DNA of 60,141 nt, from NCBI GenBank assembly GCA_017470425.1, contig JAFUYT010000019.1:1-60141 (forward strand). The letters run 5' to 3'. Source of the DNA: Bacteroidaceae bacterium (GTDB taxonomy: Bacteria; Bacteroidota; Bacteroidia; Bacteroidales; Bacteroidaceae). The translations under genes and the position numbers were made by a program. Positions 189 through 57,033 of the stretch are shown here, one piece after another (positions within the stretch are counted from its first letter, which is position 1; each line of letters begins with the position of its first letter). Under the pieces are notes generated by a model. It ran no database searches. It saw only the letters and a program-made list of their open reading frames with translations, and was not told the origin of the DNA.

Positions 189-1025
189 ATGACTATGCCA
201 ACCGACCCGCAAACGAAGACTCCGTTCGATGCCGAGGCCCTCAAGGCACGCTTCAACCCCGAAGGCTCGCAGCTGCGACGCCACCAGCGGAAGATGCTTG
301 AGATGGTCGTGGAGCTAGACCGCATCTGCCGGAAGCACGACATCCCCTATTTCCTCTACGGCGGCACACTCCTGGGGGCCATCCGCCACAATGGCTTCAT
401 TCCCTGGGACGACGACCTCGACGTGGCCGTCCTGCGCAAGGACTACCTGCGGCTGATGGAGATCCTGCCTTCGGAACTGCCCCAGCACATCGCCCTGCAG
501 ACGAACGATACCGACCCGAACTACTTCTACTTCTTCGCCAAGCTGCGCGACCGCCGCTCGCTGCTGGAGGAAGAATGTCCCTACGATCAGGTCTTCAAGG
601 AACGCGGCGTCTATATCGACATCTTCCCCTTCGAGCGGATGCGCCTGTGGACGCATCTCGTGGGCGAACCGCTGCAAGGCCACACGTTCAAGATCTTCCG
701 CACGTCGAAGAACCGTCAGTGGGCCATGCGCCGCATCCGCGCCATCACTTGGGTCAACAAGCACCTCACGTTCCCCGCGCTGCGCCTGATCAGCCGCATC
801 ACCTGTGGCCGCACGCTGACCTACGACTACGGCATCCCCTTCCATATCGTCTATGACGAGCGCGACATCTTCCCGCTGACGACACACGAGTTCGAGGACG
901 CGCAGCTCTCCGTGCCCGGCAACAGCCACCACATGCTCCAGACGCAGTACGGCGATTATATGCAACTCCCCGACCTCGACCACTTAGGCGGACATGTCAA
1001 CAAACTTGAATTCTTCGATGACTAA
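189..1025 (+). CDS. LicD-family nucleotidyl/phosphotransferase
   Basis: A 278-residue LicD-family protein. The family transfers phosphocholine or related phospho-groups onto cell-surface glycans in the cytoplasm. The signature is near residues 55-80: a GGTLLGAIRH segment followed by GFIPWDDDLDVAV, whose aspartates are the expected metal-binding and catalytic residues. No signal peptide or membrane segment is seen. It is the first gene of an operon and overlaps the acyltransferase by 8 bp (ATGACTAA), so translation is probably coupled. An in-frame ATG two codons later (195) is an equally possible start. The family is clear; the group transferred and the acceptor glycan cannot be read from sequence. 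Confidence 0.9.
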   Translation: MTMPTDPQTKTPFDAEALKARFNPEGSQLRRHQRKMLEMVVELDRICRKHDIPYFLYGGTLLGAIRHNGFIPWDDDLDVAVLRKDYLRLMEILPSELPQHIALQTNDTDPNYFYFFAKLRDRRSLLEEECPYDQVFKERGVYIDIFPFERMRLWTHLVGEPLQGHTFKIFRTSKNRQWAMRRIRAITWVNKHLTFPALRLISRITCGRTLTYDYGIPFHIVYDERDIFPLTTHEFEDAQLSVPGNSHHMLQTQYGDYMQLPDLDHLGGHVNKLEFFDD

Positions 1026-2145
1026 GCAACGACTCGAATGGCTTGATGCCCTGCGGGGCTTCACGATGTTCATGGTTGTGACGAACCATGTCTATGGCTT
1101 CGGCTTCGACACGAACACGAAGTATTCGATGTTCATGTCCATCTGCCTCCTGTTCCGTATGCCGTTGTTCTTCTTCATCAGCGGCTTCCTCGCCTACAAG
1201 GCGTCGTTCTCATGGAACCTGCGCGACACGGGCGCACTGATAGCTAAGAAGCTGCGCGTGCAGATCGTACCGACGGTGGTCTTCATGACCGCCTACATCG
1301 CCCTCATGGCCAAGCACTTCTGGGAACGCATGGAGTACGCCTGGACGAGTCCCACGAAGGGAGGCTACTGGTTCACGCTCGTGCTGCTGGAGATGTTCCT
1401 GGTCTATTATCTGGTGTGCAGCCTCGCGAAGCCCCTCTCTATCTCCCCCCGTGGAGGGGAGGACCCCTTATCCTCTGGAAATGTTTCAAGCAGTAAAGCA
1501 GCTCTCCCCCCCACGGGGGGAGCGCGGAGAGGGGCCGTCCTTATAGTGCTATGGCTGCTCTCCCTCTTCGCCTACGCCACACTCTACATGCCCTCGTGGT
1601 TCTCGTGGTACAAGGATGACTTCTGGAGGGCAACGAGCATCACGGAGCTGGCACGCTACTTCCACTTCTTCCTCCTGGGCAACCTCGTCCACCGCTACTG
1701 GCCACAGGTGCAGCGCCTGCTGGACTCGAAGTGGTTCTTCCCGCTGCTCATCATGATCGCCTTTCTGGGTGCCGGCGACTACCTGAAATGGCACAACCTG
1801 CGGATGCAGTGGGCCAACCTGCCACGCACGCTGTCGATGTACGCCCTGGTGATGGTCATCGTGGCCTTCTTCCGCCATTATGCCAGTTGGTTCACCAAGG
1901 AGACGCGCCTCGGCGCCACTCTCCAATACATCGGCGTGCGCACCCTCGACATCTACCTCATCCACTATTTCTTCATCCCTCATCTGAAGGACGTCGGCGT
2001 ATGGTTCAAGGCCCATCCCACCAACTTCGTGCTTGAAGGCACCACTGCCATGCTCCTTGCCGCCCTCGTCGTCGCCTTCTCCATCCTCACCAGCCATGTT
2101 CTCCGCGTCAGTCCCTTCTTCAAAAAGTGGCTGTTCGGGCGTTAG
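1018..2145 (+). CDS. Acyltransferase 3 family membrane protein carrying an in-frame repeat insertion
   Basis: About 375 residues in roughly ten membrane segments. The N-terminal LEWLDALRGFTMFMVVTNH matches the acyltransferase 3 family, which O-acylates surface sugars at the inner membrane; the histidine of the NHV segment sits where the family's catalytic histidine lies. I chose the ATG at 1018 because it gives the usual MxxxRLEWLDALRG start and an 8-bp overlap with licD; an ATG at 994 would add eight residues inside licD. Residues of about 139-173 are foreign to the family: they are encoded by a palindromic element that adds a proline- and glycine-rich loop between two membrane helices without breaking the frame. 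The ten segments are estimated by eye. Confidence 0.88.
   Translation: MTKQRLEWLDALRGFTMFMVVTNHVYGFGFDTNTKYSMFMSICLLFRMPLFFFISGFLAYKASFSWNLRDTGALIAKKLRVQIVPTVVFMTAYIALMAKHFWERMEYAWTSPTKGGYWFTLVLLEMFLVYYLVCSLAKPLSISPRGGEDPLSSGNVSSSKAALPPTGGARRGAVLIVLWLLSLFAYATLYMPSWFSWYKDDFWRATSITELARYFHFFLLGNLVHRYWPQVQRLLDSKWFFPLLIMIAFLGAGDYLKWHNLRMQWANLPRTLSMYALVMVIVAFFRHYASWFTKETRLGATLQYIGVRTLDIYLIHYFFIPHLKDVGVWFKAHPTNFVLEGTTAMLLAALVVAFSILTSHVLRVSPFFKKWLFGR
1431..1535 (+). repeat. In-frame palindromic coding element, family A, copy 1
   Basis: A 105-bp element (35 codons) with terminal inverted repeats GCCCCTCTC and GAGAGGGGC. Each end also has its own GC-rich hairpin: CTCCCC/GGGGAG at 1443-1461, and C and G runs around CAC at 1504-1522. 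It encodes PLSISPRGGEDPLSSGNV, then a variable stretch, then ALPPTGGARRGA. The same DNA in the same orientation and frame occurs in the OPT transporter gene at 26740-26853. Confidence 0.85.
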
Positions 2146-19054: not shown

Positions 19055-20076
19055 CGGCCGCTGGCGTCAAAGAGTTTGCGTTTCTCCTCGGCGGAGAGGC
19101 TGTCGTAGCCGCCCTGCTTCACCTTGGCCAGGATGCGGTCGATCTCGGCTTCGCGCTCCTGTTTCCGACGGTTCCACTCCATGTCGGCGCTGTGCTTGGC
19201 GCCGCCTGTGTGCACCTTCATGCGGGGCTTGCGGCGGACGGCCTGCCGAAGCGTTTCCCACTGCTGTGCACAGGTCTGGCGGAAGCGGGTCCAGAGGCTG
19301 GAGGAGTGGCGCTCGCCCTGGGTGACGTCCTCGTAGCGGGTGAAATAGTTGTCGTAGCCGCCGAAACCGCTATAGCCGTTGCCGCTGCCGCCGAAGAAGC
19401 GGCCGCCGCGGTCGCCGGGGTGCTTGCGCCAGTACAGGATGAGGGCCAAGCCGAAGAGCATACCGCCCAGATGCGCCATGTGTGCTACGCCGTCGCCGGG
19501 ATGGCCGAGGGCGCTGAGAAGCTCGATGACGGCATAGCCGATGACGAACCACTTCGCCTTGATCGGGAAGGGGATGGGGATGATGAACATACGCTCCTCG
19601 GGGAACGTCATGCCAAAGCTCAGCAGGATGCCATAGACAGCACCCGAGGCGCCCACCGTGGTCCAGCGGTTCAGATAGGCGTTCATCGGGACGACCAACC
19701 CGTCCAGGTTGACGCTGTCGTAGGCGTTGAGACCCGTATAGAGGTATTCGATGTACTGTACGCCCTCCTGCATCAGGCCCGCACCGAGGCCGCAGACAAT
19801 ATAATAGAAGAGGAAGCGCTGAGAACCCATCACGCGTTCCATGATGCGCCCGAACATCCAGACGGCAAACATATTGAAGAAGATATGCTCCAAACCGCCG
19901 TGGACGAACATATAGGTGAAGAGCTGGTACAGGCGGAAGTCCGAGGCCATGAAGAAATGCAGGCCCAGGAGGTCGTCGAAGTCGATGCCGTAGCGCGTGG
20001 CCACGATCTTGGCCAAGTACATCAGCAGGTTGATGATGATGAGGTTCTTGGTGACAGGGGGCATATTGAGATTCAT
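19051..20076 (-). CDS. Rhomboid-family intramembrane serine protease
   Basis: 341 residues with six to seven membrane helices. The catalytic serine lies in GASGAVYGILLSFG and the histidine in HMAHLGGMLFGLAL; the family NMFAVWMFG motif is also present. After the last helix a cytoplasmic tail of about 100 charged residues ends in LSAEEKRKLFDASGR. Rhomboids cut transmembrane helices of other proteins within the membrane; the target is unknown. The start at 20076 gives MNLNMPPVTKNLIIINLL; ATG 20064 (MPPVTKNL) is the alternative. A heptamer array directly abuts the start codon. A -7 box TACTTTTG lies at 20130-20137. Confidence 0.9.
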   Translation of the reverse strand: MNLNMPPVTKNLIIINLLMYLAKIVATRYGIDFDDLLGLHFFMASDFRLYQLFTYMFVHGGLEHIFFNMFAVWMFGRIMERVMGSQRFLFYYIVCGLGAGLMQEGVQYIEYLYTGLNAYDSVNLDGLVVPMNAYLNRWTTVGASGAVYGILLSFGMTFPEERMFIIPIPFPIKAKWFVIGYAVIELLSALGHPGDGVAHMAHLGGMLFGLALILYWRKHPGDRGGRFFGGSGNGYSGFGGYDNYFTRYEDVTQGERHSSSLWTRFRQTCAQQWETLRQAVRRKPRMKVHTGGAKHSADMEWNRRKQEREAEIDRILAKVKQGGYDSLSAEEKRKLFDASGR

Positions 20077-20104
20077 AGTTGACAGTTGAGAGTTGACAGT
20101 TAAA
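20077..20104 (+). repeat. Heptamer array (AGTTGAN) x4 before the rhomboid start
   Basis: Units AGTTGAC, AGTTGAG, AGTTGAC, AGTTAAA, beginning at the base next to the rhomboid start codon. The same heptamer family occurs at 38923-38950 and 56402-56457. Confidence 0.8.
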
Positions 20105-20129
20105 AGTGATAAATACGTGTTTGAGTCCG

Positions 20130-20807: not shown

Positions 20808-21159
20808 TCGAAAGGGCAGGGGGCGCTGGCCGAAAGGACTGCGGGTGTTAGCTGAAGGGCTGCGAGCCACTGACTGAAAGGGCAGGAGGTGTTGGCTGAC
20901 GGCACAGAGGGTGTTGGGTGGGAGGACAGAGGGTGTCGGGCGGAAGGGCAGAGGGTGTCGGGCGGAAGGGCAGAGGGTGTCGGGCGGAAGGGCAGAGGGT
21001 GTTGGGTGGATCACCGTGGTGATCCACCTGATAGGACACGAGGTGTAGCGCAGAAGGACGCGTCGTTTTGGGTGGATCACCAAGGTGATCCACTTGATAC
21101 GTTGTGGGGTGTGGCGGCGCAGGGCTTGACGTGTGTGCCGACGGGACATGGGGTTGTTG
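20808..21159. repeat. 22-bp phased repeat array, 16 units, two palindromic
   Basis: Sixteen consecutive units with an exact 22-bp period. Units 7-9 (20940-21005) are near-identical (GCGGAAGGGCAGAGG then GTGTCGG, or GTGTTGG in unit 9); units 1-6 decay to the left. Units 10 (21006-21027) and 13 (21072-21093) are palindromes: GTGGATCACC, two bases, GGTGATCCAC. Units 11, 12 and 14-16 are diverged copies in register. There are no unique spacers, so it is not CRISPR. Confidence 0.85.
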
Positions 21160-25331: not shown

Positions 25332-27437
25332 TCACATCTTACTCGCCTTCATGCTGGCAACGGTGACATATACAATCAGCAGAATGTAGGCGATGATGGA
25401 GCAGACCTCGGAGAGGGGATTGGCGAGCCAATCGGCGTTGAAGAGGTCCACGCCCAGGAAGCGGAGCAGCGCTGAGACGACACCCATCAGTGCGCCACCG
25501 GCGATGAAGCCAGAGGCTAAAAGCGTGCCGCGGTCGCCACGGGCTTTGTTCAGAGCCGTATCCTTGCTGCGGGTCGTGACATACCAGTTGATGGCGCCGC
25601 CCACGACGAGCGGCACATTGAGCTCCAACGGGATGAACATACCCAGCGCAAAGGCCAGCACGGGGACATCCAGGATATTGAGCAGCAAGGCCAGCAGGGC
25701 ACCCACGCCATAGAGCGTCCAGGGTGCGCCCTGCCCCATCATCAGCGGTTCGATGACGGCGGCCATGGCATTGGCCTGCGGAGCCACCATCGCGTGCTCA
25801 CCCGTGAAGCCGTAGGTCTTGTTCAGGATGATGATGACGCCGCCCACGGTGGCTGCCGAGACGAGCACGCCGAGGAACTTCCACGTCTCCTGCTTCGCGG
25901 GCGTGGTGCCGAGCCAGTAGCCGATCTTCAGGTCGGTGATGAAACCGCCGGCCATGGACAATGCGGTGCAGACGACACCGCCGATAATCATCGAGGCCAC
26001 CATGCCGCTGGTGCCTTGCAACCCCACCGCCACGAGGATGAGGGAGGCGATGATGAGGGTCATGAGGGTCATGCCACTGACGGGATTCGAGCCCACGATG
26101 GCGATAGCGTTGGCAGCCACCGTAGTGAAGAGGAAGGCGATGACGGTCACCACCAACCAGGCCACCAGGGCCTGCAGGAAGCTGTGGATGACGCCCACGT
26201 AGAAGAACACAAAGATGATGGCCAGGGCCACGACGACGGCGATAGCCAGGAAGCGCATCGAGAGGTCGCGGTCGGTGCGCAGCGTGGCAGCGGCCACGTC
26301 CTTACCCTTGCCGCGCAGTTCACGTCCGGCAAGGCCCACGGCGCCCTTGATGACGCCCCAGCTCTTGACGATGCCGATGACACCTGCCATGGCGATGGCG
26401 CCGATGCCGATGTAGCGGGCGTAGTCCTTAAAAATCAGCTGCGGATCCATCTGGCTGAGCATCACGGAGCCGTCGGTCGTCATGCCCAGGAGCGGGATGA
26501 GGAACCACCAGACGAAGAGCGAGCCGGCGCAGATGATGGCGGCGTACTTCAGTCCCACGATGTAGCCGAGACCAAGCATGGCGGCACCGGTATTGATGGA
26601 GAAGGTGAGCTTCACGCGCTGTACCAAGTCCTCGCCCCACGCAGTCATGCGGGTCGTGAGCGTCTCATGCCACCAGCCGAAGGTGCTGACCACGAAGTCA
26701 TACAGACCGCCGATGGCTGCCGCAAGGAAGAGGGTAGAAGCCCCGCTCCCCGCTCCCCCCGTGGGGGGGAGAGCCTCTTTTCCATTTGATCTCTCATAAA
26801 CCTTTCCAGAGGACATGGAGTTCTCCCCCCCACGGGGGGAGTCAGAGAGGGGCCTTTGCCCGCTCACCAGCACCTGCGTGGTGGCCGTGGCCTCGGGGAA
26901 GGGGTACTTGCCGTGCATATCCTTGACGAAATAGCGCCGGAAGGGGATGAGGAAGAGGATGCCGAGACAGCCGCCGAGGAGCGAGGAGAGGAAGACCTGC
27001 ATGAAGTTGACTGTGATCTCTGGGTACTTGGCCTGCAGGATATACAGGGCGGGAAGCGTGAAGATGGCACCCGCCACGATGACGCCTGACGAGGCACCTA
27101 TGCTCTGGATGATGACATTCTCGCCCAGCGCACCCTTGCGCCTGGCAGCGGTGCTGAGCCCCACGGCAATGATGGCGATGGGGATAGCGGCCTCGAAGAC
27201 CTGGCCCACCTTCAAACCCAGATAGGCAGCGGCCGCCGAGAAGACCACCGCCATGATGAGACCCCACGAGACGCTCCACGCGTTCACCTCGGGGTACTCA
27301 CGGTCGCCCTGCATCAGAGGCTCGTACTGCTCACCTTCACGCAGCTCGCGGAAGGCGTTGTCGGGGAGGGAGGCCCCCACCTGCCCCTCACTGTGAAGGA
27401 GGGGAGTAGTATCCTTTGTCATTTGTTTCTTATTCAT
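25332..27437 (-). CDS. OPT-family oligopeptide transporter with in-frame repeat insertions
   Basis: 701 residues with about 14-16 membrane helices; an OPT-family transporter for small peptides or metal chelates across the inner membrane. Family signs: LPDNAFRELREGEQYEPLM before the first helix, then GLIMAVVFSAAAAYLGLKVGQVFEAAIP and ATATTQVLVSG. Two stretches are foreign to the family. Residues about 11-22 (TPLLHSEGQVGA) come from a family B hairpin repeat, and residues about 195-233 from the family A palindromic element, placed in the loop just after TTQVLVSGQR and before ASTLFLAAAIGGLYDF. Neither breaks the frame. A second ATG at codon 6 is an alternative start. Confidence 0.92.
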   Translation of the reverse strand: MNKKQMTKDTTPLLHSEGQVGASLPDNAFRELREGEQYEPLMQGDREYPEVNAWSVSWGLIMAVVFSAAAAYLGLKVGQVFEAAIPIAIIAVGLSTAARRKGALGENVIIQSIGASSGVIVAGAIFTLPALYILQAKYPEITVNFMQVFLSSLLGGCLGILFLIPFRRYFVKDMHGKYPFPEATATTQVLVSGQRPLSDSPRGGENSMSSGKVYERSNGKEALPPTGGAGSGASTLFLAAAIGGLYDFVVSTFGWWHETLTTRMTAWGEDLVQRVKLTFSINTGAAMLGLGYIVGLKYAAIICAGSLFVWWFLIPLLGMTTDGSVMLSQMDPQLIFKDYARYIGIGAIAMAGVIGIVKSWGVIKGAVGLAGRELRGKGKDVAAATLRTDRDLSMRFLAIAVVVALAIIFVFFYVGVIHSFLQALVAWLVVTVIAFLFTTVAANAIAIVGSNPVSGMTLMTLIIASLILVAVGLQGTSGMVASMIIGGVVCTALSMAGGFITDLKIGYWLGTTPAKQETWKFLGVLVSAATVGGVIIILNKTYGFTGEHAMVAPQANAMAAVIEPLMMGQGAPWTLYGVGALLALLLNILDVPVLAFALGMFIPLELNVPLVVGGAINWYVTTRSKDTALNKARGDRGTLLASGFIAGGALMGVVSALLRFLGVDLFNADWLANPLSEVCSIIAYILLIVYVTVASMKASKM
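26740..26853 (-). repeat. In-frame palindromic coding element, family A, copy 2
   Basis: 114 bp (38 codons), same orientation and reading frame relative to its host gene as copy 1 at 1431-1535. It encodes PLSDSPRGGENSMSSGKV, a variable 8-residue stretch, then ALPPTGGAGSGA. Outer ends are GCCCCTCTC and GAGCGGGGC on the minus strand; each end has its own GC-rich hairpin. The central part is 9 bp longer than in copy 1, again a multiple of three. Confidence 0.85.
27371..27407 (-). repeat. Family B hairpin repeat in the OPT N-terminal codons
   Basis: Minus strand: ACTCCCCTCC, a short loop, GAGGGGCAGG, then TGGGGGCCTC. It matches the other family B copies at 27500-27573, 33831-33868 and 33991-34027. 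Confidence 0.6.
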
Positions 27438-32041: not shown

Positions 32042-32177
32042 CGCAAAAAACCGTCCGCGAGCAAAGCACGTCCGCAGGAAAAATATTTTTTAACACAATT
32101 CATACGCACACCGCACAGGAAATGACCTTTATCTGCCCACAGGCGTGGAAGGGGGGGATAATGATGCGGTATAGTTG

Positions 32178-33137
32178 TTACAGCGCAGCTATCTGCTCGG
32201 GGGCGAGACCAGTTACTTGGGCAATGACATCAGCGGCCAAGCCAAGCCCTTTCATCTTTCGGGCGTTCTCAAGATTCGCTTGCCGCTCACCCTCGGCACG
32301 ACCCTCAGCACGACCCTCAGCACGCCCCTCAGCACGCCCCTCAGCACGCCCTGTAGTCAACCCTTCGTTATGCCCCTCGCGCCAGCCATCGCGCTTAGCA
32401 GTCTCCCAGATATCGTTCTGCTGGTGGACACGCACCATGAAGTCCTCATAGGCACGACGTTCCTCACGCGTCATACGCATGTAGTCGAGCTTCTCCTTGG
32501 CCTCCTGCAAGCCAGGCGTCTGCGTGTCGTCGCGGATGATGCCATCCTTTAGATAGGCCATCCACTCCTCAATGGGTGTGCGGGCAACCTCGTTGAACTG
32601 ATTCACGCGAAGCAGGAAATATTCAGGGAACGCCTCCCGGGGGGAGGTCACCGATGCACCGGCACTGACGATGTCAGACTCACGGCTGTTGAACTGCAGG
32701 ACGGAGTCGGGATGTGTCATGCCCGTGAAGACCGTCGTGCCGTGGTAGATGTAATCCTCGCCGCTGCCAAGGTCGAAGTAGAGCACGTTGATGGAATAGA
32801 CCTTGTGGATGTTCTCATAATCCTGACCTATCCGCAACTGCTCGACAATGGCCTTTGCCGTGCCGAAGAGGATGCGCTGCATGAAGTGCGACTCACGACC
32901 TAACTGCACCTCTACGATAATAATCTCACCGTCGGCAGTCTTGGCTTTCACGTCAACGCGGTTCGATTTATCGTCGGCATCGTTCCGGTTACTCTCGCTT
33001 TCCAATATCTCTGTGATGGTGATCTTCTGACCGATGAGCACTGTCATCAAACCCTCCAGCACGGCGGCGTTGGCCTTGTCACGCAGGATGCGTTTGATGG
33101 CCCAGTCGAAACGTATGTAGTCGTTGCTCTTTCCCAT
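32178..33137 (-). CDS. Rpn-family PD-(D/E)XK nuclease / transposase-like protein
   Basis: 319 residues. The N-terminal RFDWAIKRILRDKAN and the segment NRVDVKAKTADGEIIIVEVQ (D...ExQ) fit the PD-(D/E)XK family of Rpn-type proteins, DNA nucleases implicated in recA-independent recombination and common as mobile or defence genes in Bacteroidetes. The conserved FPEYFLLRVNQFN follows. The C-terminus has five RAEG repeats encoded by a 12-bp tandem repeat, then ANLENARKMKGLGLAADVIAQVTGL, a predicted helix. It has its own promoter and lies between typA and rpsO. The biological role is unknown. Confidence 0.88.
   Translation of the reverse strand: MGKSNDYIRFDWAIKRILRDKANAAVLEGLMTVLIGQKITITEILESESNRNDADDKSNRVDVKAKTADGEIIIVEVQLGRESHFMQRILFGTAKAIVEQLRIGQDYENIHKVYSINVLYFDLGSGEDYIYHGTTVFTGMTHPDSVLQFNSRESDIVSAGASVTSPREAFPEYFLLRVNQFNEVARTPIEEWMAYLKDGIIRDDTQTPGLQEAKEKLDYMRMTREERRAYEDFMVRVHQQNDIWETAKRDGWREGHNEGLTTGRAEGRAEGRAEGRAEGRAEGERQANLENARKMKGLGLAADVIAQVTGLAPEQIAAL
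32291..32350. repeat. 12-bp tandem repeat, five units, in the rpn gene
   Basis: Units CCTCGGCACGAC, CCTCAGCACGAC, then CCTCAGCACGCC three times. It encodes the RAEG repeat on the minus strand; gain or loss of a unit keeps the frame. Confidence 0.9.
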
Positions 33138-33179: not shown

Positions 33180-33437
33180 AGGAGAATAATTGAATGGACA
33201 AAACGAATCTCTACTTTTTTCGCTTCAAGGCTCAAAAAAGGCCCTTCGAAGCAATGGCCCCGGAAATAGCTGAGTACTTCAAGACACAACCCGCCCTGAA
33301 GACTTGGCTCCATCACGGGGAGATTGGCGGTAGTGGCATAGGAGGAAGTATGCGGTGTGCGCATGAAAAGTGTTAAAAAATATATTTGATTGATGCGATT
33401 TTTCACTTTTCATGTTTCTCGTTCCATTAAAAAGGCG

Positions 33438-38872: not shown

Positions 38873-38922
38873 AAGCTTTTAGGACGAAAAAGGGAAAAAT
38901 TACGGGAGGAAATACAAAAACT

Positions 38923-38950
38923 TTCAACTTTCAACTCTCAACTCTCAACT
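38923..38950. repeat. Heptamer array (YTCAACT) x4 over the tRNA-Leu promoter
   Basis: Units TTCAACT twice, then CTCAACT twice. The array occupies the -33 region of the tRNA-Leu promoter (7 bases before the -7 box) and is the reverse complement of the AGTTGAN family at 20077-20104. Confidence 0.8.
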
Positions 38951-38956
38951 TTTCAT

Positions 38957-38964
38957 TACCTTTG
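38957..38964 (+). promoter_or_regulatory. tRNA-Leu(TAA) -7 promoter box
   Basis: TACCTTTG, 14 bases before the tRNA. No other promoter is seen before the GH95 fucosidase gene. Confidence 0.65.
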
Positions 38965-56401: not shown

Positions 56402-56457
56402 CTTAACTATCAACTGTCAACTATCAACTCTCAACTATCAACTATCAACTATCAACT
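56402..56457. repeat. Heptamer array (ATCAACT) x8 filling the tdk/AI-2E junction
   Basis: Eight 7-base units on the plus strand: CTTAACT, ATCAACT, GTCAACT, ATCAACT, CTCAACT, then ATCAACT three times. It spans from 3 bases before the AI-2E-gene start to the tdk stop codon (56452-56454), which it encodes. Same family as 20077-20104 and 38923-38950. Confidence 0.85.
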
Positions 56458-57033
56458 CTCCACCGCCTCAGCGTAGCACTGGCGGCAGAGCGGTTCGTAC
56501 TCATGTGTCTCGCCGAGCATGACCTGCTTCTCGCCGGCCACGATGCGGTGGCTGACGTAGGCGAGGGCTCCGCAGTGGACGCAGATGGCGTGCACCTTCG
56601 TGACCTCGTCGGCGATGGCGCAGAGCTGCGGCATCGGCCCGAAGGGCTGCCCCTTGAAGTCCAGGTCGAGGCCCGCCACGATGACGCGTATGCCGCGGCT
56701 GGCGAGCTCATTGCAGACATCCACGATCTGGTCGTCGAAGAACTGCGCCTCGTCGATGCCCAGGACATCGCAGTCGGAACCCATCAGCAGGATGCTGGCC
56801 GCGCTCTCCACGGGTGTCGAGGGGATGGCCTTGCCCTCGTGGCTGACGACATCCTCCTCGCTGTAGCGCACGTCGATGGCGGGTTTGAAGATCTCCACCT
56901 TCTGCTTGGCGAAGGTGGCACGTTTTATGCGGCGGATGAGCTCCTCTGTCTTTCCTGAGAACATGGAGCCGCAGATGACTTCCACGCGGCCGCGCCGCAT
57001 CATCTCGCCGTTATAGTCTTTTTCGTTGGTCAT
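56452..57033 (-). CDS. tdk: Thymidine kinase
   Basis: 193 residues. Type II (zinc) thymidine kinase phosphorylating thymidine for DNA precursor salvage. P-loop [18 protein letters not shown], Walker B-like [20 protein letters not shown], and the zinc-binding cysteines in [11 protein letters not shown] and CRQCYAEA. The start at 57033 is chosen because the -7 box (57067-57074) would exclude the earlier ATG at 57069. The stop codon and last residue come from the heptamer array. Confidence 0.95.

Follow-up and report, generated by a model that had tools for sequence, protein, structure and literature searches.

Protein-coding palindromes are best described in Rickettsia, whilst intragenic REPs are scattered in other bacteria, as far as the excerpts of the papers cited here describe them. 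In those excerpts, Rickettsia palindromic elements (RPEs) are palindromes of 105-146 bp with inverted termini that reside in frame in conserved protein genes (PMC2229807, PMC3733652), and that are also found in intergenic regions and two RNA genes (PMC2229807). REPs are presented there as mostly intergenic, with some species having intragenic copies, also in tRNA synthetases, TruB and UvrA (PMC3733652). Likewise from partial texts, TnpA-Y1 subclass 2.6, mostly from Bacteroidetes, is flanked by atypical secondary structures that recur elsewhere in the genome (PMC6006769), and the MITE of Porphyromonas gingivalis, a member of the Bacteroidales, is a non-autonomous inverted-repeat element (PMC4596501). 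A named in-frame equivalent from Bacteroidales, of which the original prediction knew none, is not reported in the open-licence literature among the matches listed.

The element analysed here lies in a window of 60,141 nt, the whole stretch of DNA that was examined, from a Bacteroidaceae genome (G000). It is like RPEs in its inverted termini, palindromic size and in-frame residence in conserved protein genes, and the Rickettsia-like behaviour that had been proposed for it is supported, the likeness being one of build and behaviour, with RPEs compared by description only. It differs from them in phylum, the orthologues being in Bacteroidales MAG records and not Rickettsia, and in distribution, since 64 of 67 copies are genic with one orientation and frame dominant, whereas RPEs are, in the excerpts cited above, also intergenic and in RNA genes. 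Like REPs and REPINs it has a short, headed hairpin that occurs singly or as an inverted pair; however, the head is ARGCCCCTCTC rather than GTAG/CGTC, the 72% complete G000 assembly has no Y1_Tnp match, and REPs are mainly extragenic whereas the element is not (64/67 genic in G000, 12/20 at gene 3' ends in the related genome G113). Likened by description only, TnpA-Y1 subclass 2.6 is also from Bacteroidetes, but no Y1 gene was found in the G000 assembly; the P. gingivalis MITE, again by description only, is likewise an inverted-repeat element of Bacteroidales. The terminal inverted repeats are as in MITEs, but the copies show no detectable target duplication, and searches for Y1_Tnp and PDDEXK_2 revealed no parent transposon. 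By this comparison, RPEs and intragenic REP dimers are the same kind of thing as the element.

The element in the window

Both the position of the element (1431-1535, inside the ORF at 994-2145) and its architecture of inverted arms with two GC-rich hairpins are as originally predicted (Table 1). Folded as RNA, copy 1 reaches -65 kcal/mol (z = -6.2), chiefly as one long hairpin, and with its terminal inverted repeats the element falls among palindromes of the about 100-150 bp class. The two hosts, an Acyl_transf_3 protein and an OPT transporter, are indeed unrelated. The peptide was said to recur almost unchanged in the OPT copy, which is true of its ends but not of the spacer, where PLSISPRGGEDPLSSGNVSSSKAALPPTGGARRGA (copy 1) and PLSDSPRGGENSMSSGKVYERSNGKEALPPTGGAGSGA (copy 2) are unlike. 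Not every copy has a length divisible by three: the 30 best copies delimited by BLAST measure 100-114 nt, and the host frame is preserved by element and flanks jointly, not by element length alone. Residence in loops between membrane helices is correct for the acyltransferase and OPT hosts but not for the family, most hosts being soluble enzymes; placement of the inserts in loops is itself predicted from sequence.

Table 1 Features of the two element copies in the window
Feature	Position	Strand	Remarks
Palindromic element, copy 1	1431..1535	+	105 nt, GCCCC...GGGGC; reads as K-PLSISPRGGEDPLSSGNVSSSKAALPPTGGARRGA
Head of arm A, GCCCCTCTCTAT	1431..1442	+	1431-1440 pairs with 1526-1535
Hairpin of arm A, CTCCCCCCGTGGAGGGGAG	1443..1461	+	
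Variable spacer between hairpins, copy 1	1462..1503	+	
Hairpin of arm B, CTCCCCCCCACGGGGGGAG	1504..1522	+	
Tail of arm B, CGCGGAGAGGGGC	1523..1535	+	
Host gene of copy 1, Acyl_transf_3 membrane acyltransferase	994..2145	+	insert between two hydrophobic segments
Palindromic element, copy 2	26740..26853	-	114 nt; reads as R-PLSDSPRGGENSMSSGKVYERSNGKEALPPTGGAGSGA
Hairpin of arm A, copy 2	26823..26841	-	
Hairpin of arm B, copy 2	26753..26771	-	
Host gene of copy 2, OPT oligopeptide transporter	25332..27437	-	

Copies in G000, their hosts and reading frames

Searched by BLAST with the element, its own genome (2.4 Mb, 72% complete) yielded tens of copies. The hairpin CTCCCCCCGTGGGGGGGAG, with at most one mismatch, matched 103 times in the 2.4 Mb and a reversed control pattern 0 times, which is far beyond chance. 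Allowing two mismatches, the fetched stretches held 56 hairpin clusters, or 54 once two contig-end duplicates (L067, L069) were dropped, of which 41 have two or more hairpins and 13 are singles. A sequence profile built on 30 copies (28 from G000, two from G015) revealed another 13 copies that are more diverged, several belonging to a second type; this search scored 150 of 1009 first-look candidates, so weak copies may be missed. The element is therefore one of 67 distinct copies or clusters (54 + 13) in the whole-genome search with its arms that had been suggested as a check. A head-pattern search found 63 heads, one of them new (C17:32833, inside an IleRS ORF) and outside the 67. Many copies consist of single or inverted paired hairpins, the form of REPs and REPINs, and some contain internal tandem arrays with units of 36, 63 and 69 nt, all multiples of three. 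Removal of the insert from RNA or protein is not needed as an explanation, because these arrays keep the frame.

Contigs C22 and C31 (TruA), and C26 and C34 (CobQ region), have an insert-bearing stretch in common, probably an assembly overlap, and it was therefore counted once. A second coding palindrome type with SEAL..LTGER-like ends was also seen in frame (L164, L167, L168, L171 and L176, and L154 in G003). At L056, L076 (CobJ), L053 (RlmB-like), L141 (CysS) and L144 (ValRS-like), the last two named by eye from sequence, hairpin pairs flank native-looking protein sequence where the spacer would normally be.

Most copies are genic rather than intergenic: 64/67 lie inside long ORFs and are read through in frame, and 3/67 do not. 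Amongst the hairpin clusters 53/54 are open in a long ORF (the exception being L004), as are 11 of the 13 diverged copies, with two not. The background is dense, as 87% of random 105-nt windows from the fetched DNA fall in some open frame of at least 150 aa and ORFs picked greedily span 92% of the window, and genic location alone is only mildly above random in G000 (P = 0.017). Under a rough frame-filter model, in which one third x 0.48 of genic insertions keep frame, about 51% of copies are expected to be genic, and the 64/67 observed is far above this; tolerance of the fold would widen the gap between the observed and expected genic share.

Host ORFs matched an NCBIfam family at E <= 1e-5 in 44 of the 49 scanned, some below the curated cut-off, and a wrong-strand ORF is among the five that matched nothing. 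Seven aminoacyl-tRNA synthetases (IleRS, ValRS, PheRS beta, ArgRS, CysRS, MetRS and HisRS) are joined by GyrB, ClpB, PurL (two sites), TsaD, TruA, TruB, PrmC, Pth, UvrA and RadA, and by HemW, FeoB, ProA, AroE, PyrF, IspD, Lpd and cobalamin enzymes. In many hosts the profile match splits at the insert; against solved structures, the alignments of IleRS, ClpB and MetRS are interrupted there, and that of GyrB contains a gap. The hosts of these many, nearly identical copies are unrelated to one another and include essential proteins, which should carry the added short peptides that are predicted here.

Orientation and frame were assessed by listing the stop-free readings of each element and comparing the reading used with a random pick, across 31 two-hairpin copies; singles and clusters with three or more hairpins are excluded, as are L069 and two loci with host sequence between the hairpins, L056 and L076. 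With forward defined as arm A (usually CTCTAAC) leading in the gene sense, 27/31 copies are forward (18.9 expected; P = 9e-4; L027 and L075 are close calls) and 23/31 use the PLS frame (9.8 expected; P = 1e-7), P values that are optimistic because the copies share ancestry. Random orientation and frame, the other outcome that would have counted against an in-frame element, is not what is seen, both being biased beyond stop avoidance. Hydrophobic residues make up 18% of the spacer in the host frame versus 35% in the alternative open frames (P = 2.5e-9, optimistic for the same reason). Codon positions within the spacer give a weak signal, with mean variability at positions 1/2/3 of 0.28/0.09/0.31 on the left and 0.35/0.44/0.55 on the right, and pairwise differences of 146/156/186.

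Site occupancy and distribution in relatives

Orthologous stretches were sought in 40 genus genomes with the joined flanks of 16 host sites; 40 stretches, mostly ones bridging the site, were fetched from the matches listed and aligned for 13 sites. At 11 of the 13 sites the insert is absent from all 38 relative stretches, a sample that favours empty sites because stretches were chosen for bridging (GyrB 6, IleRS 10, PheT 4, MetG 3, ArgS 2, HisS 2, PurL 2 and 3, TsaD 3, Lpd 2 and Pth 1). These are, as described for RPEs, in-frame insertions in conserved protein genes that are absent from the orthologous stretches fetched. The bridging matches have about 70-84% DNA identity, so junctions are not exact to the base. 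Lpd shows a clean gain of 16 residues and Pth a gain exceeding one element unit, whilst most of the remaining sites lack between a few and about 14 native residues, so that the insert looks like a loop replacement, made at once or later. Some sites are filled in relatives: ClpB in G015 at the identical place, PheT in G015 too, ProA in G018 with a different insert, and AroE in G000, G015 and G018 with a different variant each. An alpha-galactosidase site is common to G000 and G002, and CysS with two hairpins around native sequence to G000 and G016.

Acyltransferase orthologues were compared at 21 near-complete loci from named Bacteroidales MAG records, many from ruminants. The identical peptide occurs in 0/21; its presence in most orthologues, which would have marked it as native, is not seen. 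In five of the 21, the ACYLTRANSFERASE loop holds palindromes, with longest exact inverted repeats of 23 (L033), 12 (L034), 25 (L035), 9 (L036) and 14 nt (L041); the L032 loop has an 8-nt inverted repeat, a chance length, and 15/21 have none of at least 8 nt, including L044 and L049, which have C-rich/G-rich inserts. The palindromes of L033 and L034 encode a partly similar peptide (..GED..LS.KEG..); alignment A1 excludes L033, which has a stop in its frame. Judged from these sequences, the ACYLTRANSFERASE loop is a recurrent landing place for different palindromes. In L037 the loop is filled by a TTCATTG array, similar to tandem 7-mers of the AACTATC/AACTTTC type in the window (20072-20107, 38910-38963 and 56405-56464).

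Across genomes, BLAST matches to the element, many of them partial, were obtained in 13/25 of the same genus and 0/16 of other families. The head-plus-hairpin pattern (at most one mismatch) occurs in 5/301 sampled family genomes: 4/22 of the same genus (G000, G016, G059, G113) and 1/279 others, the latter with one hairpin. Loci in six other genomes were taken from the matches listed and comprise at least 50 clusters, part of those genomes' copies; 46/50 lie in an open frame of at least 150 aa (G015 19/21, G016 10/11, G059 12/13, G002 1/1, G018 2/2, G019 2/2), an excess over the 87% background that lacks significance (P = 0.19). In G059 the one exception is a merged span, both hairpins of which are open when read singly.

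A shorter head pattern yielded 21 heads (L198-L218) at 20 loci in G113 (94% complete). At 10/20 loci the stop codon of a sense ORF of at least 90 aa is no more than 45 nt from the head, and another two loci have a short ORF ending directly ahead of it, giving 12/20 at gene 3' ends in sense orientation; some heads supply the stop codon, Lon ending ...EKAPL*. Five of the remaining loci lie inside ORFs (one on the opposite strand) and three are unclear. Sense orientation within ORFs and also behind stop codons hints that the peptide alone is not decisive, and that orientation is set by insertion or by transcript-level selection.

With more than 60 copies in G000, whose hosts range from tRNA synthetases and gyrase to further genes of replication, repair and translation, and with the same loops empty, filled or differently filled in relatives, the origin of new protein loops becomes testable, as does the settlement of mobile elements inside genes. 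The element would also account for unusual insertions seen in proteins predicted from genomes of this kind.

Ends of the element and the origin of its copies

The consensus runs from the head ARGCCCCTCTC through a hairpin, spacer and inverted hairpin to the tail GAGAGGGGCYT. The base preceding the terminal G is a purine in 99% of 90 G000 heads and the next base out is A in 63%, the corresponding figures for 44 heads from relatives being 95% and 73%. Flanks of different copies are alike for only about 2 nt beyond the terminal G, and in 12/30 copies the two ends have complementary variable terminal bases. No target-site duplication was detected in 30 copies, a set that additionally excludes L059 (mean best flank match 1.77 nt versus 1.63 nt shuffled; 223/1000 shuffles as good). 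A phage or plasmid origin was rejected, as there was no match in phages or plasmids and one exact pattern was unmatched in viral contigs. PDDEXK_2 was rejected as the mobiliser: it is present in 5/8 carriers and 4/10 non-carriers, and absent from G016, G018 and G113.

Taken together, these data make it probable that the element is a non-autonomous, REPIN/MITE-like mobile palindrome that multiplied in G000 and some close relatives, and that survives as in-frame loop peptides. Its spread to new sites, its in-frame residence and its orientation and frame bias are well supported; we infer translation of the peptide, the insertion step and a mobilising agent. New copies would be made by transposition, possibly through an RNA or a folded single-stranded DNA, and a mobilising factor would insert them beside a purine without duplicating the target. 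Landings that break frame or fold would be lost and those in tolerant loops would persist as short hydrophilic peptides, with native loop residues lost at or after insertion and the peptide carried rather than needed. Against this explanation stand the failure to find a mobiliser among the families searched (Y1_Tnp and PDDEXK_2) or a target duplication, the loss of native residues at most sites, unexpected under plain transposition, and the scarcity of intergenic copies, which are too few for random insertion followed by a frame filter.

That scarcity, together with arm A leading in 27/31 G000 pairs and the untranslated, sense-oriented heads near gene 3' ends in G113, would also follow if insertion were aimed at transcribed sequence in sense orientation, for example by copying through RNA or by insertion into single strands exposed by transcription, so that location and orientation stem from the insertion step and not from peptide selection. 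We regard this as possible though somewhat doubtful, since the frame bias and the hydrophilic host-frame spacers also point to selection at the protein level. The missing native residues, and shared sites with different variants (ClpB in G000 and G015, AroE in G000, G015 and G018, the acyltransferase loop across species), could instead reflect spread between old loop sites by short-homology recombination or gene conversion that homogenised their sequences. This is unlikely, as the flanks are alike over so few nucleotides, and the sites empty in the fetched, bridging-selected relatives argue that new sites were gained.

Paired inverted hairpins with heads, and the REP-like 3'-end location in G113, would fit an ordinary REPIN family moved by a RAYT (Y1 HUH transposase) that is now lost or unassembled. 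Y1_Tnp matches occur in 40/101 genus genomes, strong in G013, weak in G003, G010 and G017 (all four being among the 13 genomes in which BLAST matched the element), and weak yet over the cut-off in G059, spanning 57 model positions; the Bacteroidetes Y1 subclass described in excerpts of PMC6006769 also has atypical flanking structures copied elsewhere in the genome. Y1_Tnp is, however, without a match in the 72% complete G000 assembly and likewise in G002, G015, G016 (92% complete), G018, G019 and G113 (94% complete), genus-wide matches do not track carriers, six fetched Y1 loci of genus members (L158-L163) have no hairpins of the element type, and the heads have no GTAG/CGTC tetranucleotide. 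On these searches we did not adopt Y1/RAYT as the mobiliser, and judge a vanished or unassembled RAYT improbable. Positive selection for the peptides as functional linkers would account for their hydrophilic, conserved ends and preferred frame; given unrelated hosts, loops that are empty or differently filled in relatives and the weak codon-position signal, it is very improbable. Returning to the mobile palindrome, we tentatively suggest, as a proposal more open to doubt than its mobility, a family with an ORF niche that moves without a RAYT, enters genes in sense, keeps its own sequence readable in a preferred frame and seeds short disordered loops in essential proteins of several species of one genus, with a sister form in another species behind stop codons.

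Two further features of the window were observed. A PDDEXK_2 gene (32178-33137, minus strand) lies between 37-nt imperfect inverted repeats (32079-32115 and 33351-33387) and looks like a small mobile unit, and positions 20813-21098 hold 22-nt tandem repeats with GTGGATCACC/GGTGATCCAC palindromes.
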